Assembly: GCA_949282265.1 (NCBI GenBank)
Contig: CASDOZ010000014.1
Coordinates: forward strand, 1 to 53,146
Origin: an uncultured Bacteroidales bacterium
Lineage (GTDB): Bacteria; Bacteroidota; Bacteroidia; Bacteroidales; Paludibacteraceae
Direction of reading: 5' to 3'
Length of the DNA stretch: 53,146 bases
The first letter of the stretch is position 1, and every line of letters begins with the position of its first letter. Position numbers and translations under genes: made by a program. The notes under the pieces were generated by a model. It had not been told where the DNA came from. It ran no database searches and saw nothing but the letters and a program-made list of their open reading frames with translations. This document shows, piece by piece, positions 4,857 through 44,411 of this stretch.

Positions 4857-4867
4857 CAAAAAAGTCT

Positions 4868-6383: not shown

Positions 6384-6462
6384 CAGCGCAAAATGTTAAA
6401 GGAAGACAATGTTTTGCGTGGGCCCATTTTGGAAGTTTTCCATTAGTTCAACTTAATTCAAA

Positions 6463-6687
6463 ATGAATAAAATGAAAAAAATCTTATTTGCCGCCTTAAT
6501 GGTGGTTGGCTTGTCAAGCTGTTCCACTGACAGCCTGTTGAATCAATATGAAAAAGCTTGCCGGAACAAGGATTATGACAAGATGGCAAAAATCGCCTTG
6601 AAGTTGGAGAAAAAAGAACTCACCACTGAACAACAGAAACGTATGGTGGAAATTTCCGAAAACTGCATGGATGATTTCAATTTCTAA
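6463..6687 (+). CDS. Small lipoprotein of unknown function
   Basis: A 74-aa protein with a Lys-rich start, a hydrophobic stretch and a lipobox ending LSSC at about residue 20, so it is probably lipidated and exported. The mature part of about 54 residues is charged and helical (NQYEKACRNKDYDKMAKIA...KKELTTEQQKRM) and has no domain I recognise. A second in-frame ATG at 6472 (MKKILFAALM) is an equally good start. The next lipoprotein begins 28 bases after its stop, so they are probably cotranscribed. Confidence 0.7.
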   Translation: MNKMKKILFAALMVVGLSSCSTDSLLNQYEKACRNKDYDKMAKIALKLEKKELTTEQQKRMVEISENCMDDFNF

Positions 6688-6715
6688 CAAGTTAAACTTT
6701 AAAATTCCAATTGCA

Positions 6716-7114
6716 ATGAAAACAATAAAATTTGCAGCGGCCTCGATATTGGCCGCAATACTACTGGCTTCATGTGGAGGCAAATCAACCGAATCTGCCG
6801 AAAACGAAGATAACACGGTGGGAATAATATCCGTCACCACACCGGAGGCAACGTCAGAGTCAGCTTCGGATAGCCCAAGCAAAACGGTTGACGATGTTGT
6901 AGACGATTACAATGCTGCCGTCTCAGAAGCTGTCGATGAATATGAAAAAGCAGTGGAAGAAGTAGCTGACGAATATGAAGCAGCAACCAAAGCAGCCAAA
7001 AGCGCCATGAAAGCCTACGAAGAAGTGGCCGACAAATCGGTGGAAGATTATGAAAAAGCTGTGGAAAAATCCATGCAAGACTACGAGAATGCATTACAAG
7101 AATTAGGTTTTTAA
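6716..7114 (+). CDS. Coiled-coil lipoprotein with DYEKAVE-type repeats
   Basis: The start at 6716 (MKTIKFAAAS) gives a clean signal peptide with lipobox LLASC and a 132-aa product; in-frame sequence upstream lacks signal-peptide features. After a Ser/Thr/Glu-rich linker, the C-terminal half is a regular helix with repeated YEKAVE, YEAATKAA and YEEVADKS units, probably an extended coiled coil. It lies between two other lipoprotein genes. No enzymatic motif is seen. A structural or spacer role at the envelope is plausible but unproven. Confidence 0.7.
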   Translation: MKTIKFAAASILAAILLASCGGKSTESAENEDNTVGIISVTTPEATSESASDSPSKTVDDVVDDYNAAVSEAVDEYEKAVEEVADEYEAATKAAKSAMKAYEEVADKSVEDYEKAVEKSMQDYENALQELGF

Positions 7115-13591: not shown

Positions 13592-14218
13592 ATGCCAGCC
13601 TCAGTAACAGTTGGTCCCAACATATTGTTAACGGGTTTTGAACCTTTCGGGCAGTGTAATGTCAATACCTCATGGGAGATAGTCGCAGCCATACCCGGAT
13701 TGCCGGGCATGTCGCTAACAAAACTTTTGCTTCCCGTTGCTTTTAAAGCCTCTGTGGATATTCTCCTACAGAAAATAGATGAACTGCAACCGGATTTCGT
13801 TGTTAGTTTGGGACAGGCTTCTTCTCGAGATACTTTTTCTTTGGAGCGTGTGGCGGTCAATATAGCCGACGCCAGACAACCGGATAATGAAGTATATCGT
13901 CCACAAAATCTTGTCATTTCTCCGGCAGGACAAAGACAATATGCTTCCACCTTGCCAATTTTTGATATCTTCCATACATTGCAATCGCATGGCATACCCG
14001 TAAGCCTGTCCGACAGTGCTGGCACCTATGTCTGCAACCATTTGATGTATAACACATTGCATTATATCACCGTGAAAGAACTGCCTGTGAAAGCAGGCTT
14101 CATCCATGTCCCTGGAATTGCCAGACTCTCAGCAGCAAATGCAACGCTGAATATGGAGGCTATGCAAAAGGCATTGGTGCTAACGCTTGAAACCTTGCGT
14201 GATGGATTTGCACGCTAA
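13592..14218 (+). CDS. pcp: Pyroglutamyl-peptidase I-like protein (peptidase family C15)
   Basis: The start at 13592 (MPASVTVGPNILLTGFEPFG) is the first ATG; a TTG nine bases earlier is possible. At 208 aa it is close to the usual length of about 215. It has the family signature LLTGFEPFG, the ERVAVN segment with the catalytic Glu, SAGTYVCNHLMY with the nucleophilic Cys, and GFIHVPGI with the catalytic His, so the triad is complete. The enzyme removes N-terminal pyroglutamate from peptides in the cytoplasm. Its gene ends the channel/Sel1 operon, only 11 bases after the Sel1 stop, which is an unusual setting for a housekeeping peptidase. Confidence 0.82.
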   Translation: MPASVTVGPNILLTGFEPFGQCNVNTSWEIVAAIPGLPGMSLTKLLLPVAFKASVDILLQKIDELQPDFVVSLGQASSRDTFSLERVAVNIADARQPDNEVYRPQNLVISPAGQRQYASTLPIFDIFHTLQSHGIPVSLSDSAGTYVCNHLMYNTLHYITVKELPVKAGFIHVPGIARLSAANATLNMEAMQKALVLTLETLRDGFAR

Positions 14219-14441
14219 GTGGCTTCATTTCCATTAAGCACCGTTTTATGCCATTTCGTTTCTTGTTGTTTCTTTTTTTTCATTGATTATTGTTGTAATT
14301 TTTCAGTCGTTTGTTGTTGATATGCCGTTTTCTCGCAGGCAAACAACAACCCCAATATAGCCATAACATATTATATACCAACAATATACAAACACACCCT
14401 TATAACCTATCCACAGATAATTTCCATACCGATAAAAATAA

Positions 14442-14487
14442 GAACCAAAAAGAACTTTGCAAAAATTAATAGAATACTTTTATTTTG
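14442..14487 (+). promoter_or_regulatory. Promoter with GAACCAAAAAGAA element, third accessory operon
   Basis: GAACCAAAAAGAA at 14442-14454 is identical to 9869-9881. The -33 TTTG is at 14456-14459 and a near-consensus -7 TTATTTTG at 14480-14487. The distances (14 bases from element to -33; 28 between the TTTG cores) equal those at the channel promoter. The remainder of the 350-base gap after the peptidase gene is AT-rich without a gene. Confidence 0.6.
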
Positions 14488-14565
14488 TGAAATCTTAAAA
14501 ACAAGGAGGTCTCTGACCTTTTATAATGTAAATGACATTCACAAGAATTATTAATCGGCTTTACC

Positions 14566-14739
14566 ATGGGATTGATTAAAGGACTTTCTTTTTCTCTTTC
14601 GAGAGCAGTCGGCATTTCCGGACTCAAAACCAAAATTGCCCGCAAGACGGGCATACCCACTACCCGCCAAGGATTGGAGCGCAAGATAGGAGCTTCTGTT
14701 TTGAATGCAGCAACAGGAAAAAAACAGAAAAGAAGATAA
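14566..14739 (+). CDS. 57-aa basic protein of unknown function
   Basis: A small gene beginning MGLIKGLSFSLSRAVGISGL, continuing KTKIARKTGIPTTRQG and ending in a Lys/Arg-rich tail (GKKQKRR). I recall similar short Bacteroidota proteins with a K.KI.RKTGIP.TR.G core, but no function is known to me. The strong positive charge suggests nucleic-acid or membrane binding. It is the first gene after the shared promoter element at 14442, 78 bases downstream of its -7 box, and precedes the PD-(D/E)XK gene by 54 bases, so a common transcript is likely. Confidence 0.6.
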   Translation: MGLIKGLSFSLSRAVGISGLKTKIARKTGIPTTRQGLERKIGASVLNAATGKKQKRR

Positions 14740-14793
14740 TAAACCTCTGTGAGACATGTTCAACCAATTAAAGATTCAGCAATAATAGTGAGT

Positions 14794-16158
14794 ATGGGAA
14801 AAAATGGTATTGTTCTTAATAGAATGTATGTTGGGGAATACATTTTTAAAAATCTCGGTCACGAGATAATCAATATGTATGCAGCTGACAATGGCAAACA
14901 TTATTTGTATCTGAACGCTACGGGTAACTACGAAAAAAAGCATAAGGGACGGATTGATACCATGTTGCTTACAAAATCGCACAAGCAAAATGTGGTAGAA
15001 GTTATTGGTCTGGCTACGGGGCTGGAAGATGTTCCTGGGGCAAACCTGCCACTCGAGAGAGATAAAAAAAAGACGAACGAAGCCATATTGGATGCCCAAA
15101 AGAAGTATATCAATGAGCAAGATGGCGGTATAACTTATGGTGGCGTATCAATACTCCAGATATTCAACGATGCCGAGCAACAGAGTATCTTTATTACATA
15201 TCAGGCAAAGAATTTTTACAAACCAAATGGCCAAGTATTTATAGCTTTTGATAGTAAATATACCAATAAAGATATACCACATGGTGCACTATTGGTAAAA
15301 TTAAGCCAACTTAATTGGGCAAAGACCTCACTTAAACAATATATCTACCCGGAAAGTGCAGATAAGGATTATCAAACAATTAGGGATTTGGTAAATAATA
15401 GCGATTTATGGAAAGAAAACAAAACAAAAGTTAATAGTAATGCAGATATTGCCAAACGCGAAATTTCGTTGATTGATATTTGCCATCTACAAAACGATGA
15501 AAATTGTTTCTCTGATATGCTTGCATATTTTATGGAGCAGGAACGTTATAGAGGGTTATGGGAGGAATTTTTCGAAAAGGCGAAATGCTACTCCAACGGT
15601 TGTTCACTTGGTATTAAATTGAAGGGAAGTTACTCTGTCACTCGTGAAAAAGAAGCAAAAATTGATGGTGTTGATAGCAAAAAGTGTCCCAATGGTGGCC
15701 GCATAGATTTGTTTATTCGTGACCAAGGGAAAAATATCGTGGTTATTGAAAATAAAATCAAGTCGGATATTAATAGCATCAGTACGGACAAGAATCATAG
15801 CAACCAGTTAAGAAGATATTATAATTATGTTAACTGGCTGATTAAAAAGGAAGGTAATGGCAATGAAATAACTCCTCATTTCTTGATTATGGCACCTAAC
15901 TATAACATTCCTGATGTGGAAGAAGAGAGGGATAAAAATCAAGAATTGTTAGTTCCTCAGATGAGCGACATATATAAAATTATTACATACAAAGAGTTGT
16001 ACGATTTTTTGAGTACCAAGAAAAAAGAATTCGAAAACGATGCAAATTTCGTAGCTTTTTATGGGTCAATGCGACGGCATACTTATTCGAATGTAAATGC
16101 CTATCTGTATTATGAAATGGAAAAAAAATTCATTCGTCGTATAAAGGAATTTTTGTGA
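14794..16158 (+). CDS. PD-(D/E)XK nuclease-superfamily protein
   Basis: The ATG at 14794 (MGKNGIVLNRMYVGEYI) is preferred; an in-frame ATG at 14749 adds 15 weakly protein-like residues. The product is 454 aa. The N-terminal half is a beta-rich unknown domain with YLYLNATG and ITYGGVSILQIF. The C-terminal half carries the nuclease core: Glu-rich ISLIDICHLQNDENCFSDMLAYF, then GGRIDLFI (Asp), then IVVIENKIKSD (Glu-x-Lys) and a QL.RYYNYV helix, as in the PDDEXK_4-like group. The acidic and Lys residues of the active site are present. It is probably a DNA nuclease acting in defence; the target is unknown. Confidence 0.72.
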   Translation: MGKNGIVLNRMYVGEYIFKNLGHEIINMYAADNGKHYLYLNATGNYEKKHKGRIDTMLLTKSHKQNVVEVIGLATGLEDVPGANLPLERDKKKTNEAILDAQKKYINEQDGGITYGGVSILQIFNDAEQQSIFITYQAKNFYKPNGQVFIAFDSKYTNKDIPHGALLVKLSQLNWAKTSLKQYIYPESADKDYQTIRDLVNNSDLWKENKTKVNSNADIAKREISLIDICHLQNDENCFSDMLAYFMEQERYRGLWEEFFEKAKCYSNGCSLGIKLKGSYSVTREKEAKIDGVDSKKCPNGGRIDLFIRDQGKNIVVIENKIKSDINSISTDKNHSNQLRRYYNYVNWLIKKEGNGNEITPHFLIMAPNYNIPDVEEERDKNQELLVPQMSDIYKIITYKELYDFLSTKKKEFENDANFVAFYGSMRRHTYSNVNAYLYYEMEKKFIRRIKEFL

Positions 16159-16226
16159 TAAAAAAGGTCGGATATGCATGGTCGTAAAAGGTGAGTTGTT
16201 TCCCTCCTGCATATTAAATGATTGCA

Positions 16227-16337
16227 ATGGAAAAACATAATTTCCTCTACGATAACGAGCTTTTGGATAAAACCAAGGAGTGCTTTGTGCTGGCATTCCA
16301 CAAAAAAAACAGACAAAATAAATTATCTAATTATTAA
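16227..16337 (+). CDS. Possible 36-aa peptide or gene remnant
   Basis: A short frame MEKHNFLYDNELLDKTKECF ending with a Lys/Asn-rich tail. Residue composition looks natural (no rare-codon runs), and it sits 69 bases after the nuclease gene and 49 bases before the LRR gene. It could be a real small protein or the start of a gene that decayed; nothing similar is known to me. Confidence 0.3.
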   Translation: MEKHNFLYDNELLDKTKECFVLAFHKKNRQNKLSNY

Positions 16338-16386
16338 CCAATCTGCATTGCTTTGTGATGAAGCGGATAATAAAGAGAAAAATAAT

Positions 16387-18120
16387 ATGGGCTTAACTTT
16401 ATCAGAAGACAAGAAGACATTGTTGAAGTGTTCAGAGGATGTAACCAATTGTATCATCCCCAATGGAGTAGTGATTATTGGGGATGGTCACTGTGTATTT
16501 CCTAGCTATCGAACGGAAACTTACACGGAGAATCATGGTAGAAATGGGAAAGAAACTAAAACTCGTACTGAGCAAGTAGATAATACCCGCCTTGTGTCTG
16601 TAGCAATCCCCCAAACAGTGAGGTATGTTAGGAGCTATGCGTTTAATAGATGTACTTCATTAAGGGCCATTTCATTTCCTGATGGTGTGTTGTCAATTGA
16701 TGGACATGCCTTTTCGGGGTGCAAAAACTTACTTGCTATTCGTATGCCTTCGACTATCTTGAGTTTGTCTAACATGTGGCTATTTCAAACCGCCTTGTAT
16801 AACAATGAATCCAATTGGAAAGATGGGGTGCTTTATATAGGTACAAATTTGGTCGCATCGAAACAAGAAATTACAAACTGCAAAATAATTGAAGGGACAC
16901 GTGTGATTGCAGCTGACGCATTTTATAGATTTCTTTCTTATAAATGTTCAAATTCTCAATTAGCTTCTGTATCTATTCCGGATAGTGTAGTTTCTATTGG
17001 ATACAACGCATTTAAAGATACTGCACTTTATAAAGACGCCTCTAAATGGAAGGACAATGTCTTGTATATAGACCATTGCTTGATTGATGTCAAGCAGAAA
17101 CTGCTTGTTGGGGATTATCAAATAGAGAAGGGTACTCGCGTCATAGCGGATGGAGCTTTTGCGTATAGCGGTGCGCTTATGAATGTTATTTTGCCGGATA
17201 GCTTGCAGACTATTGGTCGTCTTGCTTTTGAAAGTTGTTTTGCTCTTTCTTCTATCGAAGTGCCTTATGGCGTATTTTATATTGGAGCATGGGCTTTTCT
17301 ACGTTGTTCCTTGTTGACATCTGTGACGTTGCCTAGTTCACTGGAGTATATGGGAGGTAACGTTTTTAAGGATTGTGGCATTTTGAGCGAAATTAAAGTT
17401 TTTGCAGTGAAGCCTCCTGTAGTGGATACTACATTGGGAAGCAATTTGGATAAATCCATTCCTGTTTATGTTCCTGAGGAATCGATTGAGGCTTATAAGG
17501 CGGCTGATGGTTGGTGTGAGTTTACGAATTTCCTGCCTTTAAAAGACAAGGAAAAGAAAAAAACGGCATCCGTCATAGAAGAAAAGGTGGAAGTAACAAC
17601 CAAACCAACAGCTTCTAAAACAGCGAAAGCAGAACCGAAACCGGAAAAAACAGCAGCCCCAGTTGTTGAGAAAGCGGAAACTGTTGTGGATACGGCTGTC
17701 CCAGAAGTACCGAAAGCAGAACCGAAAGCAGAAAAAACAGCAGCCCCAGTTGTTGAGAAAGTGGAAACTGTTGTGGATACGGTTGCTCCAGAAGCTCCAA
17801 AAGCAGAACCAAAGCACGAAAAACCGACTGCTCCTGCAGCTGAAGAACCTAAAACGGCGGCGGCATCTGCAACTTCCCCAGCCAAACCCAATTTATCGGA
17901 CGTGAAAAAATCGGCAGAAACAAAGGACTATCTCGTTACACAAGGCAACGATGGCAGCATTACGGTATATCGCAAGAATGGAAACGAATGGGAGGAATCG
18001 GACAATGCTAAAGGTTCTTTGCGTGAATTGGCAGCTCAAGTATCGTTTGACTATGACAAATCTTGGACTACCCGACAATTTGGCGCAAAACTGATTGATT
18101 TTGTTAATAAACTCTCGTAA
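16387..18120 (+). CDS. Signal-less leucine-rich-repeat protein with C-terminal domain shared with the OmpA protein
   Basis: The start at 16387 (MGLTLSEDKKTLLKC) begins the repeat domain and gives 577 aa; upstream in-frame sequence is not protein-like. Residues up to about 375 are LRR_5/BspA-like repeats (IPDSVVSIGYNAF, LPDSLQTIGRLAF, VPYGVFYIGAWAF, LPSSLEYMGGNVF) ending in a typical VDTTLG...IPVYVPEESIEAYKAA cap. A Pro/Glu/Ala/Lys linker with two 29-residue repeats follows. The last 65 residues (KDYLVTQGNDGSITVY...TRQFGAKLIDFVN) match the N-terminus of the next gene product. Unlike most BspA-like proteins it has no signal peptide, so it should act in the cytoplasm. Confidence 0.82.
   Translation: MGLTLSEDKKTLLKCSEDVTNCIIPNGVVIIGDGHCVFPSYRTETYTENHGRNGKETKTRTEQVDNTRLVSVAIPQTVRYVRSYAFNRCTSLRAISFPDGVLSIDGHAFSGCKNLLAIRMPSTILSLSNMWLFQTALYNNESNWKDGVLYIGTNLVASKQEITNCKIIEGTRVIAADAFYRFLSYKCSNSQLASVSIPDSVVSIGYNAFKDTALYKDASKWKDNVLYIDHCLIDVKQKLLVGDYQIEKGTRVIADGAFAYSGALMNVILPDSLQTIGRLAFESCFALSSIEVPYGVFYIGAWAFLRCSLLTSVTLPSSLEYMGGNVFKDCGILSEIKVFAVKPPVVDTTLGSNLDKSIPVYVPEESIEAYKAADGWCEFTNFLPLKDKEKKKTASVIEEKVEVTTKPTASKTAKAEPKPEKTAAPVVEKAETVVDTAVPEVPKAEPKAEKTAAPVVEKVETVVDTVAPEAPKAEPKHEKPTAPAAEEPKTAAASATSPAKPNLSDVKKSAETKDYLVTQGNDGSITVYRKNGNEWEESDNAKGSLRELAAQVSFDYDKSWTTRQFGAKLIDFVNKLS
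17644..17817 (+). repeat. Two tandem 87-bp repeats in the LRR-protein linker
   Basis: Units 17644-17730 and 17731-17817 are nearly identical and encode EKTAAPVVEK(A/V)ETVVDT followed by a P/K/A/E stretch; a shortened third unit starts at 17818. Such in-frame repeats can change copy number and so alter linker length. Confidence 0.85.
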
Positions 18121-30051: not shown

Positions 30052-31965
30052 ATGAAAAAGACATTTTTTACATTATGCCTCGGGCTGGCATGTTTGCCCA
30101 TTCTTGCCGTCGAAGAAAAGGAAATGGACATCGAAGAAATCACCGTAACCGCCCAACGGGCACAAATAGCCTCCGAGTCGCTACGTGTCATAACATCGCT
30201 CACCCGCGATGACATCGAAGCCTTGCCCGTGCAGAACATCAACGAACTGTTGGACTACCTGCCGGGGATAGACATACGCCAACGCGGCAGCAACGGCGCG
30301 CAAGCCGACATTTCCATGCGCGGAGGCACATTTGACCAAGTGCTCATCCTGCTCAACGGTGTCAACATAACCGACGTGCAAAGCGGGCACCACAACCTGG
30401 ATCTGCCTATCGAACTGGGCATGATAGACCGCATAGAAATCCTGCAAGGTACAAGCATGAACCTGTTCGGATTGTCGGCATTCAGCGGTGCCATCAACAT
30501 AATCACCGGCCAAAGCAAGCCCGATGCCCCGCCCGTGCAAGCCAACGCCTCGCTCACTGCCGGACAATATGGCCTGTTCAATCCCGCCCTCGGCGGCAAA
30601 TTCAAAGCTGGTACTTGGAACATCAGCGCATCCGCATCCTACAACGAAAGCAGCGGATACACCTATAACACCGGCTATGAGTACGGAAACATTTTCATGC
30701 AGGCACGAACCGAGGAGAGCCGCAGCGGCCGCTGGAACATACAACTCGGCGGGCAGTTGAAAGAATTCGGCGCAAACGCTTTTTATTCCCTCTCCTACCC
30801 CGACCAGTTTGAAGCCACAAAAACCCTTTTGGGCTCTGTCGGCTGGGACAAGACCTTCGGCCAATGGAACATTTCCGCATCGGCCTATTTCCGCACGCAC
30901 TATGACCGCTTCGAACTTATCCACGACCTGAGCACCGCACCGGCGTGGTACACAGGCCACAATTACCATTTGAACCGCACGCTCGGCGCAAACTTGAAAG
31001 CGAGCTATTTTTCGCGCATAGGCAAAAGCACCATCGGCATTGAAGTTCGCGACGACCATATTCTAAGCACCGTGCTCGGCGATTCGCTCGACACGCCCAA
31101 GCCTGTACCGTTCACACAAGACAGCGTCATGTTCCTGTTCTCAAAAGACCGGCTGAACCTGAATTATTTTGCCGAACAGGCCTTCTATTTCGGGAATTGG
31201 GCCGCATCTGTCGGAATATCAGGAAACTATAACAACATGTTCAAACACAATTTCTGTTTCGGGGCAAACATAGGCTACCAGTTTACGCGCGAAGGCAACG
31301 TGTATGCCAACATAAACCGTTCGCTGCGCCTGCCGACCTACACCGACCTGTACTACAAAAGCGCGACCCAGATTGCCAATCCCGGACTAAAACCGGAAAC
31401 GGCACTCACCACCGAAATCGGGGCAAAATGGGCATATAAAGGCTTACGGACGCAGATATCCGCCTATTACCGCATGGGAGAAAACATTATCGACTGGATA
31501 AAACTGCCCGAAGAAGAACAATGGCGCAGCATGAACCACACACGTGTGGACGGCATGGGCGGCGAAGCCTCTGTATCCTACCGTTACGGATACTGGCTCA
31601 AAAATATCGGCGTTTCCTACTCATTCTGCCATCTGGACAAAGATGCCGGCGAATACATGTCGAAATATGCGCTGGATTATCTGAAACACAAATTGGTCTT
31701 CAGCCTGGAACACGGCATATACAAAGGTTTCGGTGCCAGCTGGCAACTCAGCTACCAGTCGCGTGTGGGCACATATACCGACCGCAGCGGCGTTACAACC
31801 GCCTACCGGCCTTTCTGGCTGCTCGATGGACGCATTTACTGGACAAACAAGCAAATCACCGTCTATGCAGAAGCCACGAACCAGACCGACTGCACTTATT
31901 ATGACTATGGCGGCATATTACAACCGCAACGGTGGGTCAAAACAGGCATACAGGTAAAACTCTGA
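30052..31965 (+). CDS. TonB-dependent outer membrane receptor, BtuB-like
   Basis: The start at 30052 (MKKTFFTLCLGLACL) gives a signal peptide and a 637-aa protein, the size of BtuB-type receptors; longer frames include the leader described separately. A TonB-box-like EEITVTAQ follows the signal, then the plug domain (LPVQNINELLDYLPGIDIRQRG, ISMRGGTFDQVLILLNGVNI, IDRIEILQG). The barrel has GLKPETALTTEIG, and the last residues (WVKTGIQVKL) are a normal outer membrane sorting end. The substrate may be cobalamin or a related compound, but no B12 riboswitch core is seen upstream. Confidence 0.88.
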   Translation: MKKTFFTLCLGLACLPILAVEEKEMDIEEITVTAQRAQIASESLRVITSLTRDDIEALPVQNINELLDYLPGIDIRQRGSNGAQADISMRGGTFDQVLILLNGVNITDVQSGHHNLDLPIELGMIDRIEILQGTSMNLFGLSAFSGAINIITGQSKPDAPPVQANASLTAGQYGLFNPALGGKFKAGTWNISASASYNESSGYTYNTGYEYGNIFMQARTEESRSGRWNIQLGGQLKEFGANAFYSLSYPDQFEATKTLLGSVGWDKTFGQWNISASAYFRTHYDRFELIHDLSTAPAWYTGHNYHLNRTLGANLKASYFSRIGKSTIGIEVRDDHILSTVLGDSLDTPKPVPFTQDSVMFLFSKDRLNLNYFAEQAFYFGNWAASVGISGNYNNMFKHNFCFGANIGYQFTREGNVYANINRSLRLPTYTDLYYKSATQIANPGLKPETALTTEIGAKWAYKGLRTQISAYYRMGENIIDWIKLPEEEQWRSMNHTRVDGMGGEASVSYRYGYWLKNIGVSYSFCHLDKDAGEYMSKYALDYLKHKLVFSLEHGIYKGFGASWQLSYQSRVGTYTDRSGVTTAYRPFWLLDGRIYWTNKQITVYAEATNQTDCTYYDYGGILQPQRWVKTGIQVKL

Positions 31966-34357: not shown

Positions 34358-34486
34358 AATACACATATTCCTATTAATTAACATGTTGCTGCAACAATTG
34401 CATGGTTTCATTTTTGCGATATTTCATACGTATACGCCATATCAACTCGTTGATGGGAACCGGCCAGATACTACCAAGCAACAGTC

Positions 34487-34872
34487 TTTCCGAAGCAAGA
34501 ACAGGTTTTTCCTGCTACCTGTCCTAGATACTTGTGAAAAAAAGACCTGCACGGCGGTTCGGAAAAACGAATGTAAGGTGCGGCAATTCCGCAGCCTGTT
34601 GTCGCATAAACAGTCGTGCAAGGCGTTTCAGATAAGGTTCCATATTTCCGGCATTTTCAAATTCGCTTTTGCAAATGTACGTGTTTTTTTGTGTTTGGCA
34701 TAGAAAGGAGGGGGAGTAAAAATCGCCTGCAAAAAATGGACTTGTTTTTCTTCATGTATTGTTGCGAACAAGGGTGTGACGAGGCTACCTTGTTTAACAA
34801 ACAAAACCTTTTAGGATATACGGATTTAATACGGAGCAAATAGGACGCAAACATGGAGCAAGCGACTGTGCA
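34487..34872 (-). repeat. Inverted copy D of the addB-like promoter and 5' end
   Basis: On the minus strand it reproduces about 385 bases of 23955-24350: the GTTTGCG...CTATTTGCTCC segment, an intact -7 box TACATTTG (34672-34679), an ATG at 34643 opening MEPYLKRLARLFMRQQAAEL, and the FPNRRAGLFF region, where a small deletion breaks the frame. It ends at about residue 50 of the gene. It is a pseudogene fragment with a promoter that looks functional. Confidence 0.8.
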
Positions 34873-34907
34873 GGACTTCATACTTGAACCGCCAGTAATT
34901 GTATATC

Positions 34908-35210
34908 AACGTGAGTTCAACGAATTCAGGATAAGGCAGGCTATGTGTCAATCATTCATGAAACGATTGATACAAGGCTTTTTTGAGTAGCAGCAGTATG
35001 CGGTGATGGTACTCAAAAGGTTGACTATAAAATTATCCAAGGTTCTGTGCCTTGAATGCTCTACTTGTACCATACAAAACAATTCTGTAACTTTGTCCTC
35101 AGTGAGCATAGCGATTATGGTTTTTAATTAATTCAGTGGTATAAAAATACGATAAACAATTTTTATAATCACCATATAATCAACTGTTTATGTTACGTAT
35201 GACTCGGGTT
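34908..35210 (-). mobile_element. MITE-like element 1 (IS982-type internal deletion)
   Basis: A 303-bp element nearly repeated at 43904-44206 in the same orientation. It has imperfect terminal inverted repeats: AACGTGAGTTCAACG on the left and a CGTAT-GACTC end on the right. The minus strand encodes MLTEDKVTELFCM, the start of an IS982-like transposase. This is joined directly to a RHRTLDNFIVNLLSTITAYC segment resembling its C-terminal end, so the catalytic middle is deleted. It cannot move by itself but could be mobilised by a full-length relative. Confidence 0.7.
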
Positions 35211-35255
35211 AAAATAAGGCTATATGCTAATCATAAATAAAAATAACAATGAAGA

Positions 35256-38200
35256 ATGGCTAATAAACTAAATATATCTCAACTTGCATCAATCAAAGGA
35301 TGTACAATAGAGGAAATATATGAGCTTGCCACAAATAAAGGAGTGATACTGCCCAGTAATTCTGAATACATCCTTACGGCATCTCAACTTAATGCTATCG
35401 ACCCTAAACTTGCGTGGAATATAAAATATGGGAGGATTGTATCTACCCAAGTTGAGGACTCAGAAAAAAAGTCAGAGGAAAAAGTTGAAGTCATCTCGCC
35501 TAAAGTTTGTCATCTAATAAAGAGTGATAAAAACAATTTGCCTCCATTAAAAGTTGTAGGTAAGATAGATTTATCGCAAATTGATCTTTTGAACCTGTTA
35601 GAATCATCGACAGCTACGCCTACCCCTGTAAAAGAGTTTAGCGGCAACAATAATAGAAAAGAGAAGAAACCGAAGATTCCCGAGCGTGTAATAGGTATTA
35701 TCAAGTTCTTTGATTCATTTAAGGGTTGGGGATTTGTTATATCTGGAAGTAAAGGCATAAGCGGTAAATCAGAGGATGAAGGGCGATTGTTCAGTTTGCA
35801 TCTGACAAGTTCTGAATGGAACTCATCCTCTTCACCCAAAGATGGTGAGTGGATTATTTTTACCCCTCACAAAACTCAAAGAGGTTGGAGTGCCCTTAAT
35901 GCTGAACGCATGGAATTTAACCGAGAGACATTGCTTTTTGCAATGAAATACCGAGGAAAGTATGCTAAGATAAAAGGTACCGATAGCAAAGGCGACAGCT
36001 ACGATGAGGATATTTTATATCAAATCATACGAAAACTAGTAGAAATAAGAACTAGTTATGGCCATATTTCATATGATCAATCTAAATTTTCTGAAGTTAT
36101 TGACGTTTTCTGTGAGTTCATCGCTAATATACCAACTGAGAGACAAGAGTCAACTATAAAGCAGTTTATAGATGACCCACTCCTTGAACATCTCCTATTT
36201 CAAATTTTCACGGAAAGTGATTATTCTTCTGAAAACAACTCACATATGGCGGTCTATACGCTATACAACAAAATATTATTAAACCGAATTTTTGAAACAG
36301 GTACAATTAATGACCTTTCCAAAATACCTGACACATTTGACTTTAGCTCATACATAGAAGGCCTGACGAATCTACTGGTCACAAATGCGGAAAAAGAGCC
36401 TTCCTCTGTCGAATCATGGCTCGATGTACATAATATTCAAAACAAGCTAAATCTGGATAGGACAGATCCCAAAACTATACCATTGCGCTTGATTCTGGCT
36501 AAACTGTCGTCAGATGAAAGTTGGATAAATACCCTTAATGTAGAATGGGAAGTACTTAGAGAATATCTTAAGGAAAAACCTTCAAATGCTTATGATTTTT
36601 GTATTCATTACTTTGCCGATAAAGATGAGAACTTTATAAGAAATCATAAAGTTGCAGACTTATTAGGGGATAGCACTTTCAATGAGTGGTGTAAGGACAT
36701 GATTGATGACGAACATGCCCCTAAAATTTTCTTGCGAATCCTTATGGAATATAAGGTTGAAGGAAACCTGGACATGTGGAAGCAATATATAGAGACAGGG
36801 CATGATGTGCTTCCTTCTTACAGAATATTACGAACAGCACTTAGTAACGAGATAAAAGATAACGCAGAAAGTGTACGTGGCTTTTTCAAATCATGCCAAG
36901 ATCACGGGTTTAGTGTAGTAGACTTAATGGGTAATGATAAATGTCTTAGTGATGAAATGTATGTTGAGATGTTCGTTCAAACAGGAGATTTTGAATATCT
37001 CAATAATATGGAAGACTTTGATGCAAGCGCAACATGGGTCTCACTACAGCCGTCAGAATTTGTCGTTCAATTTATCAAATACTATGGTGCTTTAATTGAA
37101 CATGAAGAAGGCATTGAAGAAGATTCCTACATAAAATCTTTAGGCGATGATGCTGTTGTTAATGCTCTGAAATCCATTTCAGATGATGATGAACAAATTC
37201 AGTTACTTCGTTTCTTCCCCAAACAATTCGCTACAAATATCGTGTCTAGGCATTTTGCTGACACCAAACTTTTTGATTTGTATATAGGAGAACAATGGGC
37301 TGAATTGAAAAGTAAGTTGCCCTATATGGTGTTCGATTTGGAGAGTGATGGCGATTCCGTTAGAGAATTTGCCTTCCGCTCTGGCGATTACACGCATTAC
37401 TATGAAGATGAAGGCCGGTTGGGAATTCTTATAGCTGAAATCAATTTAAAGCCAATTGTGGTTGGTCATAGGGTCAAGCAGTGGGATTTGAAAGTACTGG
37501 AAAAGCATGGTAATATTTCCCCTGAATTTGTCTGGGATACACTTGAAATAGAAATACTTCTCAATCCTTGTCGATATGCATATTCGCTTCATACGGCACA
37601 TAATGCCAAAGACGATACAGAACTGACAGACCGTTTATTCTGGAATCAACTATATCGTTTATCGTTGGATGAGCAGCTGTGCACCCAACTGGCTGATTTC
37701 TTGCCGATAAATATAAAGTCAATATTAGATGAATTGCGTCAGCCAAACTTCTCTCAATTTTTCAAGAAGTCTGGCGGTACAGAAGATTCCTTCTATCAAA
37801 ATCTTCATGATATTGATGATACTCTCATTTGTAAATTAAGAGTTATTGAGGAAGAATGTGATGGAAAATCCCTTATTATTGCACCTCAAAGGCTATGGAA
37901 TAGAATTGCAGAACATTTGCCAGTATCATTCATCCGAGAAGAATCCGACATTGATTATCTACAGATTTCAGAAGAAAAACTAAAAGACAAGCCTTTGGAG
38001 AATACTTACCTTCAAACTGTATTGCTACGTTTTAGTCAAATTTCTAAGACACCAATAGTGTCCAATCTTGCTGCATACCTTAGAATCCAATATTTTAGTG
38101 ATAACATGTTGCTTGATTACCTGACTGTTGTGCCGTCTAATATAGTATGTGCAGATTTAAGGTATATCGATGCAACTCAGGGACTTCTCAATTACAATAA

Positions 38201-41200
38201 GATATACTTTGTTGGCTGCGAATTAGAAAATCGTTTGAATCAGTACACTCTGCCAACTCAACTTCGACCAGCTGATTTCTGGGGCGAAAAGAGTTCTATT
38301 CCTATGCGTCTTGGCGGTTCAAGTTTCACATATGTAACAAAAGAAGACCGGAAGTCTAAGTTGTTTGCCGAAATTCCCTCAGATGCTGCAAATGTGTGGA
38401 TAGAACGGACAAGAGATGGCAAATATATCGTAAACTATAATTTCAATTTTATAAGAAAGCTAAAAAACTTATATTCTGAACTGCACTCAGACGTTATTAT
38501 TAATAATATCGCCTGGACTCAAGAGGATGCAAACAATCGTTGTATATCACTCGTCAGGAGCGGACGTCCAAGGAAATTCGACTTCCAACAAAAGCGTGTA
38601 AACTCTACATCAAGATATCGATCAATGTATTGGATGTATCAGCTTGCATTGTTAAGTGAAGTACATTCTCATGAAAGTCGAATGCCAATCATCTACATTT
38701 TGGAGAATGACCTCGAATTAGATCAAGTCATTAAATATGCGCAGCATTTGGGCTATTATGTTCCTACGGAAGGAACACTAATTTCAAAATTGGAAAAGAT
38801 TGCTCAAAGAGCCGATGGTTTACTTGTTGTTTCAAGAGATAAATTCTTCGACATTATAGAGAAAAGACTTTATACAGCATACTGCTTTGTCTGGGATCAA
38901 ATGGCAGTCGAAAAGCATATGATGATGTGGCAGAATGAGGGAACTGTAGAAGATGGAATCTTAAGTGATGGTGTAGATGAAACTGGTATAGAATTAAAAA
39001 GTGGTTCTATAAAGGACACCTATCAGGCAATGTTGCTCTCTTTGTGGCCCATTTATCAATATTATAATCGCTTTATACAAGCGAATAATGGCTCATCCAA
39101 AATGTATATCCTTGACAGTTTCTTAGAAGACTATCATACCCTGAGCAGTATATGGAATTCAAGTACCTTAACTTCTAGTCAACTATGGAATAGTGAGAAA
39201 GAGTTTAATGATTGCTTGTCTAAAGCTCAAACTTTCTTCAAGGAAGATCTTTCTAACAATGTTCAACAAGATGCTGAAGATGTAAAAAGAGCGATGGATG
39301 TGATTTTAACGACAATGGTTCCAGAAAGGGATGGCGTGCGAAAATGGTCTGATATCCAAGAGAAAGTACTACCAGAAATCCTTAGCAAGAAGGAAAATTA
39401 TCTTATATCAATTCCAACAGGTGGAGGTAAATCTGTTCTTTTCCAAGGACCTGCCCTTTACAATGCTTCATACACGAACCGTTTGTCTTTGGTTGTCACG
39501 CCATTAAAAGCTCTTATGCAAGACCAAGTACGAGAACTTGCAGATAAAGGTTTTTACACCAATGTCGATTTTCTGAATGGAGATCGAACCTATCAAGAAA
39601 CAAGGAGTATATACAGGAAAATTAATAGCGGTGAATTAGCGTTGCTTTATGTTACTCCAGAAAGATTTCGTTCTCGTGCTTTTCTGAATGCTTTAATGAC
39701 CAGAATGATGAATGACAAAGGGTTAGAATACATGATATTCGATGAAGCCCATTGTATATCTCAATGGGGCATGGAATTCAGGCCAGAGTATTTGAATGTC
39801 ATTAATAAGTGCAAGTGCTTTTCAGAGACATTTACAGGTGGCATGTGCATTGCTATGTTCTCTGCCACTGTAACGGACATGATTTATAACCAAATCAATG
39901 AGACAGTTCCAGTAAAGAGACTTGGACAGGATAATGATAAGAAAATTTACAATCCGATTCGGAGTCACATCGGCACCTCATTTAGGCTGGTTTCCCATGA
40001 TATGAATTCTAGAATTGAAGCCATCATTGAATATATTGATGAGAATAATATTGATTTTGGTAAGAGCCGGATGCTCATTTTCTGCAAAACTCGCAGCCAG
40101 TGTGAGGAATTGGCAGCTTCTTTACCCTCACTACTTGTGAATAAAGGATTACTTCCGGATAGAGATGCTTCTGAGCGGGTGGGCTATTTCCACGCTGGAC
40201 TTGATGCCGACGATAGAGACGATGCTTATAGTCGTTTTAAGTCAGACGATGATCCAATTTATATTCTGTGTGCAACGAAGGCGTTTGGTATGGGCATGGA
40301 TATTCCCAATATTCATTATATCATTCATTTGTCACCACCAAATGTTTTAGAAGATTATTTACAGGAAGTCGGACGTGCAGGCAGGAATAAAGGCATGTAT
40401 CAGCTTGCTGGGTTTAGTGAAGACAATCCTATTCCCACCGTATGTCTTTATTCTACTGAGGATATAAAACATTCTCGTGAACAATTATTGCAAAGTATGC
40501 TCAGTTGGAATAACCTCGAAGAGATAAGAGCTGATATTCTCGATTATATATCAAATATTCAATCAATTGAGAAGACAAAAGAAATACCTGTTGTTGTTCC
40601 TAATACATTATGGTCAAGTTCTCCTTTTGATTTTGAGCATACAGATTTCAAACTCGGTGAATATTGGCTCGAACGTATGGACAGAATAAAGATGGGGTAT
40701 CTTAGTCCTGCTCATATTACCGTTACCATCCAAGAAATAAATGTTCCCAATTCACCCTTGCTCTCCTCAAAAGAGGGTATGTATGCTAAACTCATAGAAA
40801 GTTTGTTGAATATTTCAAGAGAGAAAGGTACAAACACTATCCAGATTTCACCACAGAAACTGGCTGGTGATATGTCTATTCATCCAACCAAAGTTCTAGA
40901 TTTGCTCATAAAATGTGCTAAGTATAGGTTGTTAGTCATTAATCAAGAAGTAAGGTGTCGAGTAGCAAATACTCGTAGAGATGAAGTGGCATACATGCTT
41001 ACGCACCCTTCATTGGATGTAGCTTTCCATATTATCATAAATGCGACTGAGAAACTGCTTCAAGAAAATGTAGTTAACAAAGAAAAAACGTATTTAGACA
41101 AAGAAATACGGGCTTTCATGGATACATCTTCTCTTGACCATGTTCTAAAAAAAGTTGAAAGAGAATTAGAAAATGGTCAAATGGAATCCAGGTATTACAT

Positions 41201-42659
41201 GCCATGGTACAATAAAGAAGACAGAACACGTAACATGGGGTTATCTGTTGCAAAAAATTATAAGAAAGACTTAATGGGTAAGCGTTTTAGGCAGATTTTC
41301 TCCACGTTGCTTGACATAATTCCTGATGTTAAGTGTAAGTCTTACATTGACAGGGAAGCAAAGTGTGTGAAACAGTCTATTCTTGTAGAAAAAACAACAT
41401 GGAAAGACTTCCTCCCACAATTCAAAGAAGACTGTTTACGAACCCTTACATATATATATGAAAGTCAACAGGCTAACAAAACAACTTTAAATTGGGCTGA
41501 AGCTGTTAACCATTTGGAATTGGGACAAAAGGGGTTTACCTATTTTGAAAACATTATGCGATACCTTTCAGGTATGGCCTATATTGCTTCAGATAATCTG
41601 CTTCCAACAGGAGTTGAGGTTTACACGACAGATATTTCTGAACAGGTAATCCTTGAAGAGACTAAGTCTGATAGTCGGGATTATAATGATAAATTGGCGT
41701 TTGATGAAATTTTGCAGATTCGTAATCTTAGATTATGTGTGATGGATGCCCTAACTTCTAAAGTTGGGAATAACAAGGAGGCTTTTCAGGAATTGATAAG
41801 TGCGTATTTCAGTAAAACGGATGCCAATGGTTTTATTGAATTATTGGGAAAATACTATGATGAAAACGATGAAATTTGGGGAGCTATACGAGAAACGGCA
41901 ATCAAGAATGCTGAAGAGAAAATGAAGGATAACCCTGAACAATGGGCAATATATAATGAAAACTCAAATGTAAACATCAATGTAGAGGCAGGTCCAGGTT
42001 CGGGAAAAACACATGTCTTGACAATGAGATGTGCAAAACTTATATATCGTCAAGGAGTTAATCCACGGCAGATTCTCGTTTTGGCATATAACCGGGCAGT
42101 CGTTATTGAGTTAAAATCCCGTTTAAGTAAGCTTTTTACCTCATTAGGATTGAGCCGATCTGCTAGTCAGCTTCATGTCTACACTTTTCATGGACTTGCA
42201 AAAAAAGTTTGTGGAAAAGACCAGTTGGAAGGATTGGAAATGAATGAATGGGAGGAGCAACTTTTAAGATTATTACAAAGTAATCCCGTTGAAGTGACCA
42301 AGATTTTAGGAGACATAAAGTATATACTCATCGACGAGTTTCAGGACATAACGCAAACTCGCTTGGAAGCAATGTTTGAATTGAATAAGATATATAATCA
42401 CCCTGCATTCTTTACCATTGGTGACAGAGACCAAAGTATTTACGGCTTTGAAAAAGAAGAATCTATGGATCCTGAGTATTATTACCGCCAATTACTTGAT
42501 AAGTTGGATCCAAAGACTATGAGTATGAGAACAAATTACAGGTCATTTCCAAAGATTTTGACAGAAGCCTCAAGATACTTATCTGATACTTCTAGGTTGC
42601 CTGTAGCTTGTAAAAAAAATCTGGAGGAAGAGCCTAAAGAAGCCTATACATATATATAA
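35256..42659 (+). CDS. Giant cold-shock / DEDDh exonuclease / RecQ / UvrD protein, first part
   Basis: 2467 codons. The N-terminal 60 residues form a small helical domain (NISQLASIKGCTIEEIYELA). A cold-shock-like domain follows at about 143-225 (RVIGIIKFFDSFKGWGFVIS), then a long helical region. A DEDDh 3'-5' exonuclease lies at about 688-800 with all acidic residues (VFDLESDGD, VGHRVKQWDL, HTAHNAKDDTEL). A RecQ helicase has Walker A IPTGGGKS at about 1387, DEAHCISQWG at 1496 and QEVGRAGRN at 1703. The UvrD/Rep N-terminal half has EAGPGSGKT at about 2243, LIDEFQDIT and IGDRDQSIYGF. The frame then stops at 42657; the rest continues in another frame. The gene is AT-rich and flanked by MITEs. 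Probably anti-phage or genome-maintenance. Confidence 0.88.
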   Translation: MANKLNISQLASIKGCTIEEIYELATNKGVILPSNSEYILTASQLNAIDPKLAWNIKYGRIVSTQVEDSEKKSEEKVEVISPKVCHLIKSDKNNLPPLKVVGKIDLSQIDLLNLLESSTATPTPVKEFSGNNNRKEKKPKIPERVIGIIKFFDSFKGWGFVISGSKGISGKSEDEGRLFSLHLTSSEWNSSSSPKDGEWIIFTPHKTQRGWSALNAERMEFNRETLLFAMKYRGKYAKIKGTDSKGDSYDEDILYQIIRKLVEIRTSYGHISYDQSKFSEVIDVFCEFIANIPTERQESTIKQFIDDPLLEHLLFQIFTESDYSSENNSHMAVYTLYNKILLNRIFETGTINDLSKIPDTFDFSSYIEGLTNLLVTNAEKEPSSVESWLDVHNIQNKLNLDRTDPKTIPLRLILAKLSSDESWINTLNVEWEVLREYLKEKPSNAYDFCIHYFADKDENFIRNHKVADLLGDSTFNEWCKDMIDDEHAPKIFLRILMEYKVEGNLDMWKQYIETGHDVLPSYRILRTALSNEIKDNAESVRGFFKSCQDHGFSVVDLMGNDKCLSDEMYVEMFVQTGDFEYLNNMEDFDASATWVSLQPSEFVVQFIKYYGALIEHEEGIEEDSYIKSLGDDAVVNALKSISDDDEQIQLLRFFPKQFATNIVSRHFADTKLFDLYIGEQWAELKSKLPYMVFDLESDGDSVREFAFRSGDYTHYYEDEGRLGILIAEINLKPIVVGHRVKQWDLKVLEKHGNISPEFVWDTLEIEILLNPCRYAYSLHTAHNAKDDTELTDRLFWNQLYRLSLDEQLCTQLADFLPINIKSILDELRQPNFSQFFKKSGGTEDSFYQNLHDIDDTLICKLRVIEEECDGKSLIIAPQRLWNRIAEHLPVSFIREESDIDYLQISEEKLKDKPLENTYLQTVLLRFSQISKTPIVSNLAAYLRIQYFSDNMLLDYLTVVPSNIVCADLRYIDATQGLLNYNKIYFVGCELENRLNQYTLPTQLRPADFWGEKSSIPMRLGGSSFTYVTKEDRKSKLFAEIPSDAANVWIERTRDGKYIVNYNFNFIRKLKNLYSELHSDVIINNIAWTQEDANNRCISLVRSGRPRKFDFQQKRVNSTSRYRSMYWMYQLALLSEVHSHESRMPIIYILENDLELDQVIKYAQHLGYYVPTEGTLISKLEKIAQRADGLLVVSRDKFFDIIEKRLYTAYCFVWDQMAVEKHMMMWQNEGTVEDGILSDGVDETGIELKSGSIKDTYQAMLLSLWPIYQYYNRFIQANNGSSKMYILDSFLEDYHTLSSIWNSSTLTSSQLWNSEKEFNDCLSKAQTFFKEDLSNNVQQDAEDVKRAMDVILTTMVPERDGVRKWSDIQEKVLPEILSKKENYLISIPTGGGKSVLFQGPALYNASYTNRLSLVVTPLKALMQDQVRELADKGFYTNVDFLNGDRTYQETRSIYRKINSGELALLYVTPERFRSRAFLNALMTRMMNDKGLEYMIFDEAHCISQWGMEFRPEYLNVINKCKCFSETFTGGMCIAMFSATVTDMIYNQINETVPVKRLGQDNDKKIYNPIRSHIGTSFRLVSHDMNSRIEAIIEYIDENNIDFGKSRMLIFCKTRSQCEELAASLPSLLVNKGLLPDRDASERVGYFHAGLDADDRDDAYSRFKSDDDPIYILCATKAFGMGMDIPNIHYIIHLSPPNVLEDYLQEVGRAGRNKGMYQLAGFSEDNPIPTVCLYSTEDIKHSREQLLQSMLSWNNLEEIRADILDYISNIQSIEKTKEIPVVVPNTLWSSSPFDFEHTDFKLGEYWLERMDRIKMGYLSPAHITVTIQEINVPNSPLLSSKEGMYAKLIESLLNISREKGTNTIQISPQKLAGDMSIHPTKVLDLLIKCAKYRLLVINQEVRCRVANTRRDEVAYMLTHPSLDVAFHIIINATEKLLQENVVNKEKTYLDKEIRAFMDTSSLDHVLKKVERELENGQMESRYYMPWYNKEDRTRNMGLSVAKNYKKDLMGKRFRQIFSTLLDIIPDVKCKSYIDREAKCVKQSILVEKTTWKDFLPQFKEDCLRTLTYIYESQQANKTTLNWAEAVNHLELGQKGFTYFENIMRYLSGMAYIASDNLLPTGVEVYTTDISEQVILEETKSDSRDYNDKLAFDEILQIRNLRLCVMDALTSKVGNNKEAFQELISAYFSKTDANGFIELLGKYYDENDEIWGAIRETAIKNAEEKMKDNPEQWAIYNENSNVNINVEAGPGSGKTHVLTMRCAKLIYRQGVNPRQILVLAYNRAVVIELKSRLSKLFTSLGLSRSASQLHVYTFHGLAKKVCGKDQLEGLEMNEWEEQLLRLLQSNPVEVTKILGDIKYILIDEFQDITQTRLEAMFELNKIYNHPAFFTIGDRDQSIYGFEKEESMDPEYYYRQLLDKLDPKTMSMRTNYRSFPKILTEASRYLSDTSRLPVACKKNLEEEPKEAYTYI

Positions 42660-42723
42660 TAACCAGAGGAATTGGGCAGAGGATTTCCAACATACAATTT
42701 CTTTTTTAAGACAGCATCAAATA

Positions 42724-43905
42724 ATGGATGTGGCAGTATTCTTCCGCACAAATAGCGAGGTATATCATGGATATTCGCTAATAAGAACCTTGGATATTCC
42801 CAATGTAAGAATTAGAATACAGGGTGTTTCTGAATGTGAACTTTTTAGGAAACGTGAAATCTATGCCGTTATCCACCTAATAGAGAAAGAAGGTGACAAG
42901 CAACTGAAATTAGAGAATGATGAAACCAAAAATTGGGTGAGAAACAAAGTTTCTACATTGATCTCCAAACTTAATAATTGGGATAGTTTCTATTTGGACT
43001 TTGCTTATACCCTCGTCTTAGACTATCTTGACTTTGCAGAAAGTGATGATGAAAGGCACACATATAAAGAGATGGCTGAATTTTTAAAATCATCTTTAGC
43101 AGAGGATAATCCACAGTTATATAAGTTGTATGATAAATATCAAAGCCAAAGGATTCTTCAAGGACAACAAATGAACGTAGTCCTTACCACTATGCACAAA
43201 GTGAAGGGGCTTGAATTTGATGCTGTAATAGTCACACCTTCTATTGCCTCTTTGCCATTTGACCCAACCCAAGAGATTTATGAAGATATCCCTCTTTCCG
43301 AACACGAGAAAGAGTGCATAGAAGAAGAGCGTCGATTATTATATGTAGCATTCACTCGCGCCAAGAAGTTCCTTATGGCATATCTCGGTAAACGAGAGAA
43401 TGCCGTAATGAATATGGTGAAATATGCTGGTGATGACATTTCGCTTGGCATTTGTGAAAGAAATTCGGGATTAGATAACTATAATATTGGTTTTAATGCT
43501 GGCAGTTACGGCTTTGGAAGCAACCGCAATATAGTTAATCAAGTGGAAAAGAATGCACCTGTTGTCATTAGAAAAGAGCGTAAAAGAGGGCAAAATGGGG
43601 CATTTACGGTCTTTAATATAATATGCAATGGAACTATTGTGGGACAATTATCAAAATCTAGTTCCATAAGACAGACAATGGAAGAAATGGATATATCCCA
43701 ATTGCAGGGCTTTTTTGTGAGTGATGTTTTTTATTGGACATATAAAGATACACTCGCTGCGGACGAAAGACGAAGAAGAGATTATGATCTTAATCCGTGG
43801 AAATATGGATATACCCCTCCAGAACCATTCGCAATAAGATGGTGTGAAGATGCAAGGAAACAGAGGTTTGTGTTTATAGTTAGTATATCTGGATATGGTA
43901 ATTAA
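42724..43905 (+). pseudogene. C-terminal UvrD part of the giant helicase, separated by a frameshift
   Basis: 393 codons from the first ATG, but the frame is open from before 42640 and reads on naturally from the first part (HIYNNQRNWAEDFQHTISFL). It holds the remaining UvrD motifs: VAVFFRTNSE, VVLTTMHKVKGLEFDAVIV and EERRLLYVAFTRAKKFLM. Adding one TA unit to the TATATATA tract at 42650-42658 restores a single frame of about 2,880 codons. The C-terminus runs into the MITE, which supplies the stop codon, so a few native residues may be lost. It could also be expressed alone from the internal ATG, but it would lack Walker A. Confidence 0.75.
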
Positions 43906-44206
43906 CGTAAGTTCGACGAATTAAGGATAAGGCAGGCTGTGTGTCAATCGTTCTTGAAACATTGATACAGGGATTTTGGGGGCAGCAGCAGTATGCAGCG
44001 ATGATACTCAAGAGGTTGACTATAAAATTATCCAAAATTCTGTGCCATGAATGCTCCACTTGTGCCATACAAGACAATTCTATAACTTTGTTCTCAGTGA
44101 GCATAGCGATTATGGTTTTTAATTAATTCAGTGGTACAAAAATACGATAAATAATTTTTTCTAATCACCAAATAATCAACTGCTTATATTGCGTCGGACT
44201 CATATT
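43904..44206 (-). mobile_element. MITE-like element 2 (IS982-type internal deletion)
   Basis: A second 303-bp copy, same orientation as the first and roughly 85-90% identical by eye. Ends are AACGTAAGTTCGACG and CGTCGGACTCATATT, which are inverted to each other. The minus strand gives MLTENKVIELSCM joined to the HSWHRILDNFIVNLLSIIAAYC and PCINVSRTIDTQPALSLI region. It begins at the stop codon of the helicase gene. The 260 bases that follow, up to the gdhA stop, hold no gene apart from the gdhA terminator. Confidence 0.7.
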
Positions 44207-44411
44207 CTATAGGTACGGATATATTGAACAAGGTATCTGTTGCCAGAACTTCCACTGAAAGTACAATAAAGAAAGAAGTAAGAAATAAAAAACAAATGTG
44301 GATAGGTATAATTGCTATATATTATTGTTTTTATTACCATTATTCTTCATTTCGTATTAATTGCCATCTGTCAGACAAAATTCATGTCATGACAATGTAC
44401 CTACAAAAAAT

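Follow-up and report, generated by a model that had tools for sequence, protein, structure and literature searches.

Why should a bacterium link a 3'-5' exonuclease and two helicases of different superfamilies in one polypeptide chain? The question is raised by a gene at positions 35,256 to 43,905 (forward strand) of a 53,146-nucleotide stretch, hereafter called the window, of contig CASDOZ010000014.1 (assembly GCA_949282265.1) from an uncultured Bacteroidales bacterium of the family Paludibacteraceae. An initial annotation had described the gene as encoding a single polypeptide and had suggested an anti-phage or plasmid-control role. Our analysis points to a horizontally acquired accessory nuclease-helicase machine that is probably aimed at invading DNA, a sequence-based reading to which we assign a probability of roughly 0.45. 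A machine that unwinds and degrades DNA is favoured because the parts are linked in one chain, their motifs are kept and the distribution of the gene is accessory.

One gene in two reading frames

The coding region consists of two open reading frames (ORFs), and the question is whether they belong together. In an alignment with L016, an uninterrupted relative of 3026 amino acids (aa) from another genus of the same family, ORF A matches L016 as far as residue 2614, and ORF B continues from residue 2639. Since L016 spans both in one chain, ORF A and ORF B together make up one gene, whose reading frame changes once, within UvrD; the single polypeptide proposed for the restored frame is thus borne out. 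Its parts follow each other in the order IF2_N-like domain, cold-shock-like domain, about 450 residues, DEDDh exonuclease, about 500 residues, RecQ, UvrD and C-terminal domain. The order annotated initially agrees with Pfam and the alignments, but had left out the stretch between exonuclease and RecQ as well as the C-terminal domain. The features are as follows (SF1 and SF2, helicase superfamilies 1 and 2):

35256..42659, + strand: ORF A, 2467 aa, with N-terminal part, cold-shock part, DEDDh, RecQ and first UvrD half (ORF list, Pfam)
42724..43905, + strand: ORF B, 393 aa, in a different frame, with second UvrD half and C-terminal domain (ORF list, Pfam, L016 alignment)
35256..35420, + strand: IF2_N-like N-terminal domain, residues 1-55 (hhalign, 72% against 23 IF2_N sequences)
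35682..35900, + strand: cold-shock-like domain, about residues 143-215 (aligned to the cold-shock domain of relative L023)
35913..37292, + strand: poorly conserved region of about 450 residues (alignment; the structure model spans its last 40 residues)
37293..37742, + strand: DEDDh 3'-5' exonuclease, residues 680-829 (catalytic residues, structure model, Foldseek)
37743..39290, + strand: region 830-1345, fold unassigned; the model shows strands alternating with helices at 1122-1226, perhaps a RecA2-like fold
39333..40499, + strand: RecQ SF2 helicase core, residues 1360-1748 (TIGR01389, 6.6e-68; Pfam; motifs)
41931..42656, + strand: UvrD SF1 helicase, N-terminal half, residues 2226-2467 (Pfam, 1.3e-31; motifs I and II)
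42724..43377, + strand: UvrD SF1 helicase, C-terminal half (Pfam UvrD_C, 3.5e-16; motif VI)
43468..43899, + strand: conserved C-terminal domain, also present in the sister clade (alignment of 18 members; model)

The UvrD/Rep SF1 core, split over two frames in the window, is encoded in a single frame in the relatives, of which L016, L017, L020, L023, L024, L037 and L038 are uninterrupted and span 2515-3026 aa. The frame change sits near a short TA run (about 42,645-42,660) in a genome of 28 contigs and 89% completeness, compatible with a real break as well as with an assembly error. A second difference concerns the adjacent gene: 6-12 nt downstream of the large gene, L016, L017, L019, L020 and L037 carry SF1 helicase genes which are all mutually homologous, while there is none downstream of the window gene. 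L020 is the same locus as L036, a Bacteroidales record identical to a protein of G241, a genome of the window's family. Because UvrD is interrupted and the SF1 partner gene is absent, the window copy itself is probably inactive or impaired, as far as its sequence tells. Could the gene then simply be decaying, with no present function in the window genome and stranded between the repeats that flank it? The frame change, these repeats and the absence of a downstream gene that five relatives of the family possess would fit such a view. We still consider it improbable, as 2467 codons stay open with intact motifs, mis-assembly of the dinucleotide run may account for the break, and decay would leave the uninterrupted relatives unexplained.

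Catalytic cores and accessory domains

The exonuclease had been annotated as complete, and its full DEDDh catalytic set (D694, E696, D744, H782 and D787) indeed proved invariant in all eight aligned sequences. Pfam reported neither an exonuclease nor a cold-shock domain in the window protein; a Foldseek search with the exonuclease model retrieved exonuclease-bearing polymerases (best E 7.5e-4). The exonuclease profile matched L038 (7.5e-19) and a cold-shock protein of Rhodobacter (1.3e-17) and, more weakly, seven of 11 proteins of a shorter DEDDh-RecQ-UvrD form introduced below.

Within ORF A, Pfam placed DEAD at residues 1366-1541 (3.4e-33) and Helicase_C at 1602-1711 (1.4e-19). RecQ is by far the best NCBIfam family for this core, yet the scores stay under the family cut-offs (229.6 versus 640.2 bits needed for the recQ equivalog, 197.6 versus 219.8 for recQ_fam). 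In a motif census of 34 entries, of which 31 contain UvrD and 31 RecQ sequence, every UvrD-containing entry has motifs I and II of this helicase; the RecQ DEAH motif is present in all 31 RecQ-containing ones, 29 as DEAHC and two as DEAHT. The strict pattern of the RecQ Walker motif is present in 25 of 31 and PTGTGKS in five more, while a Deinococcus ORF lacks the motif because it starts downstream of it. Since the motifs are kept in this census, the helicase parts, at sequence level, are not degenerate across the family. The exonuclease is less constant, as relative L035 seems to be without it.

The last approximately 140 residues form the C-terminal domain, modelled with a mean pLDDT of 85.6. 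Foldseek returned no match in the PDB (best E 0.12), and none of 18 members showed a Pfam family of its own in this domain. A HIRAN-like fold, an idea prompted by the sequence pattern, found no support in Pfam (18 members), PDB sequence searches or Foldseek; the PDB sequence matches obtained with the C-terminal query fall in the UvrD motif region. For residues 830-1345, the profile matched eleven entries, every one from Bacteroidota, and gave no match in L035, L038 or Rhodobacter. A degenerate DinG-like helicase was suggested here by the strand-helix pattern of residues 1122-1226 and by Foldseek, which weakly matched DinG and the C-terminal domains of SF2 helicases. This candidate is kept as a lead only, since mean model confidence was 47.9, PDB sequence searches yielded no useful match, and comparison with the RecQ and UvrD profiles of the family, a set without a DinG profile, was negative (hhalign best 3.2%). 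Proteins that a Helicase_C_2 search retrieved from 21 genomes did not enter the analysis.

The N-terminal parts are more elusive. The annotated small N-terminal domain resembles IF2_N by hhalign (23 of 24 sequences of the comparison set were used), but the reverse search with the IF2_N profile gave nothing at residues 1-55 at E < 1, and Pfam had no match for this domain of the window protein. Similarly, the annotated cold-shock-like domain aligns with that of L023 but scores weakly on its own (E 0.058 with the family profile). Among the aligned relatives, L023 alone exceeds the Pfam cut-off for a cold-shock domain (1.1e-9); matches below the cut-off were obtained in L037, L038, Hymenobacter and Rhodobacter. 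Pfam further detected an S1 domain inside the L016 chain (1e-10) and, in L037, a gene with three S1 domains that overlaps the start of the large gene (2.2e-34).

Such domains raise the possibility of a system directed at RNA or R-loops: RNA or RNA-DNA hybrids would be recognised through the IF2_N-like, cold-shock and S1 domains and then removed by exonuclease and helicases while foreign sequences are transcribed or replicated. Besides the occurrence of these domains in the window gene, L016, L023 and L037, and more weakly in L037, L038, Hymenobacter and Rhodobacter as far as the cold-shock part is concerned, a precedent may be seen in Bacillus subtilis DinG, which carries helicase domains besides its DEDD exonuclease and is called an exo(ribo)nuclease in the accessible part of PMC12525004. 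We regard an RNA-directed role as quite unlikely nonetheless: cold-shock and S1 domains are also able to bind single-stranded DNA, no RNA-specific catalytic domain was found among the parts of the chain, and L035 seems to be without the cold-shock part.

Distribution, neighbourhood and possible role

How widespread is such a gene? Counted at E 1e-60 with the window protein, relatives occur in 4 of 299 other genomes of a family sample, 3 of 392 of an order sample and none of 394 of a phylum sample (the samples partly overlap and include incomplete genomes). In the one other genome of the genus that was compared, G018, about 170 bp stand in place of 9.9 kb of the window, with flanks that align at 90-91%. 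Patchy relatives and this empty site confirm the accessory setting that had been assumed. Conserved genes of chromosomal type flank the window gene; by eye, the relatives examined share no position that would speak for a conserved housekeeping gene. The G+C content of the window gene is 36-38%, compared to 42-56% for most of the 10 kb on each side. The insertion comprises the following features:

34466..44401, no strand: segment replaced in G018 by about 170 bp (alignment with G018)
34905..35205, no strand: direct repeat of about 300 bp, upstream copy (self-comparison)
43901..44201, no strand: direct repeat, downstream copy, 85-90% identical by segment (self-comparison)
34951..35109, - strand: short open frame in the upstream repeat (no Pfam support)
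43883..44104, - strand: matching open frame in the downstream repeat (no Pfam match)

The repeat-borne frames may resemble a transposase remnant, and movement of the gene via the flanking repeats is our guess. The insert contains no gene besides the large one. Positions 34487-34715, at its left edge, form a further small repeat: they align to L198 17280-17509 and to one more site of G018 rather than to the syntenic site. The direct repeat also occurs in pieces at two further places in the genome. At one, in L022 (G000:C13:24000-40000), two stretches at about 3815-6800, with repeated short peptides in translation, look CRISPR-array-like by eye; close to them, repeat pieces at C13:31368-31444 and 31527-31584 precede methyltransferase-looking genes. 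At the other, a piece in L021 (G000:C5:80000-92000) at 5980-6080 stands just upstream of an AAA ATPase-like gene.

The relatives were placed in a midpoint-rooted tree of 30 proteins, based on 538 columns of the RecQ and UvrD parts. The tree does not include L029 (a Deinococcus ORF), L027 (a fragmented locus of Hymenobacter cellulosilyticus) or L036, a duplicate of L020; L034, a weak match without RecQ or UvrD on a contig of phage-like genes, was dropped, and of two sets of 80 loci, 75 and 68, respectively, were set aside because they showed no RecQ part at the thresholds used. L025 ends at a contig end and L019 begins about 90 nt from one. The tree splits in two with a support of 1.000. One group, the cold-shock clade, comprises the window protein, L016, L017, L019, L020, L037, L035, Hymenobacter, L023-L025, L038 (from Kiritimatiellota) and Rhodobacter; the other consists of the shorter DEDDh-RecQ-UvrD form without cold-shock part. 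Within the cold-shock clade, the parts occur fused, distributed over two to three adjacent genes (Hymenobacter, Rhodobacter) or partly absent (L035). Three consecutive genes of Rhodobacter sp. CZR27 encode a protein of 550 aa with cold-shock and DEDDh parts, one of 134 aa and a RecQ-UvrD protein of 1774 aa. In Hymenobacter swuensis (L026 13516-21673) the chain extends over two overlapping ORFs with the break inside RecQ, either a frameshift or a true split. L035, from a bin named Anaerobiospirillum (Gammaproteobacteria), forms a long branch among Bacteroidota, which suggests transfer between phyla, wrong binning of the contig being the alternative.

The shorter form is found in 23 of 72,556 plasmid records at at least 80% coverage, including the query's own record. 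The rarity claimed initially for a nuclease and two helicases in one chain therefore holds for the form with a cold-shock part, but not for DEDDh-RecQ-UvrD as such, which is widespread. Coverage of 80%, whether of the window protein or of the short-form query, was reached in none of 50,697 phage records, and a phage-encoded origin was set aside on this count.

The plasmid records bring another function to mind: maintenance and repair of a plasmid or mobile element by a WRN-like exonuclease-helicase acting on forks or transfer intermediates of its own element. Apart from these 23 records, members of the sister clade adjoin parA/parB in Aliarcobacter, lie about 8 kb or less from SSB, ParA and ParG genes in Bacteroides finegoldii and occur in viral-class contigs at 12 of 80 loci, the 80 having been picked by similarity. 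The 15 annotated plasmid neighbourhoods (three more plasmid records have no annotation around the match) are mixed, with type I restriction in Allochromatium, CRISPR type I-D in Thiothrix, HipA in two, ParA/ParB in Aliarcobacter, SSB and ParA in B. finegoldii, and ordinary genes. Against such a role, the window gene has its chromosomal-type surroundings, by eye no replication or transfer genes stand beside L016, L017, L020 and L037, and three loci of the cold-shock clade have restriction or candidate defence neighbours. A maintenance role for the window gene thus appears unlikely to us, if less so than decay or an RNA-directed role.

The three loci emerged from a PADLOC scan of selected neighbours at eight loci (L016, L036, L037, L038, L031, L241, L026 and L238), seven of which belong to the window's clade. 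A type IIG restriction-modification system was recognised at L038, a type III methyltransferase, a DrmD-like gene and PDC-S68 at L026, and a type I methyltransferase and PDC-M19B at L241, that is, restriction or candidate defence genes at three of seven clade loci, a raw count without matched background. The partner helicases of L016, L036 and L037 match GajB-type and NERD-helicase models; in a Pfam run on the same three loci, the L016 partner has a NERD domain. An AlbA-type gene of L037 matches part of Argonaute models and was left uncounted. Two further observations concern these neighbourhoods. On the same strand before the large gene, L038 (2-4212) carries the end of the type IIG restriction-modification gene, three proteins without a Pfam family over the cut-off and DUF6998. 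Downstream of the RecQ-UvrD gene of L241 (8753-10465) lie small ORFs, of which a 208-aa one matches the central part of DNA polymerase III alpha (2.5e-30), the rest of that protein being absent.

The anti-phage role proposed initially is plausible, with restriction or candidate defence neighbours at some loci, but others have plasmid, toxin-antitoxin or ordinary genes. Several points weigh against our preferred reading. The window copy is frameshifted, and in profile searches L035 seems to lack both exonuclease and cold-shock parts. PADLOC detected no restriction system among the selected neighbours of L016, L036, L037 and L238, and for the window, L017, L019 and L035 the wider surroundings were judged by eye only. 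Plasmid loci of both clades also carry ParA/ParB, HipA or ordinary genes, again without matched background. Finally, the low G+C content is weak evidence of transfer because window positions 1-3000 and 14001-17000 are about as low.

How might a machine of this kind act? RecQ and UvrD move 3' to 5' along one strand and open duplex DNA, and DEDDh enzymes take nucleotides off 3' ends. Given this motor direction and 3'-end activity, unprotected DNA may be both opened and digested by one chain. Contact with single strands or RNA-DNA structures would come from the cold-shock and S1-type domains, with a possible contribution of the C-terminal domain, while the SF1 helicase encoded next door in related loci would serve as its partner. 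More tentatively still, we propose an unnamed defence system of at least three phyla (Bacteroidota, Pseudomonadota and Kiritimatiellota), in which two motors from separate superfamilies are coupled to a cold-shock/S1-guided DEDDh exonuclease. Rhodobacter would encode it in three adjacent genes and Hymenobacter in two, whereas Bacteroidales would use a single giant gene, to which one family of the order adds an SF1 partner, in one case with a NERD nuclease domain. If so, the defences of Bacteroidales would be extended by a candidate that targets DNA and has uninterrupted homologues at hand. As natural evidence, the fused and split forms point to the subunits that act together.

Comparison with known systems

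In agreement with the initial annotation, no named defence system or other described system with this domain order was found in the literature searched, most subscription papers being outside its reach. From its sequence, the window gene appears to be a variant of a known nuclease-helicase kind with an order not described there. Closest are the DEDDh-RecQ-UvrD proteins of the sister clade, named 'RecQ family ATP-dependent DNA helicase' and present on plasmids of Sulfitobacter, Cereibacter, Allochromatium, Bacteroides finegoldii and others. They share the order exonuclease, RecQ, UvrD and C-terminal domain, but are shorter (1463-1763 aa), form a separate group in the tree, and neither the cold-shock part nor the 500-residue linker was found in them.

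DinG, which has an XPD-like helicase and is not known to contain RecQ or UvrD, is similar in that a DEDD exonuclease and a helicase share a chain, and Staphylococcus aureus DinG (9ii8) was a weak Foldseek match (E 0.1). This joining of exonuclease and helicase is described for Bacillus and Staphylococcus DinG in the accessible part of PMC12525004. The combination of an OB-type domain with nuclease or helicase effectors recalls the TOTE (TPR, OB, TBP, Effector) and TALON conflict systems, as far as presented in the accessible part of PMC12458937. The cold-shock part of L023 weakly matches Pfam S1CSD-TOTE-2 (0.014), which is under the cut-off, and the cold-shock family PF00313 fits far better (2.2e-10); membership in TOTE found no support. 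No TBP gene was present among ten scanned neighbours of L016, L036, L037 and L038, and the window insert holds the large gene only.

PADLOC on the window protein yielded local helicase matches (DpdF, possible alternative Cas3, PsyrT, GajB and others). With Dpd DpdF (1.6e-62) and Gabija GajB (3.3e-30) the helicase cores alone are in common, and the cut-off of the DpdF equivalog NF041063 was not reached (139.6 versus 550 bits); the window insert contains no further gene of these systems. Polyvalent proteins likewise unite several enzymatic domains in very long chains of mobile elements, with UvrD paired to SWI2/SNF2 helicases; the window order was not met in the part of PMC5512222 that was accessible.

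RecBCD and AddAB offer another parallel, as both are helicase-nucleases with a UvrD-type motor, but the window gene has an SF2 RecQ motor and DEDDh instead of a RecB-type nuclease. If our preferred reading is true, it would encode a single-chain SF2-plus-SF1 counterpart of such multi-subunit end-processing machines, with both motors physically linked to a proofreading-type exonuclease.

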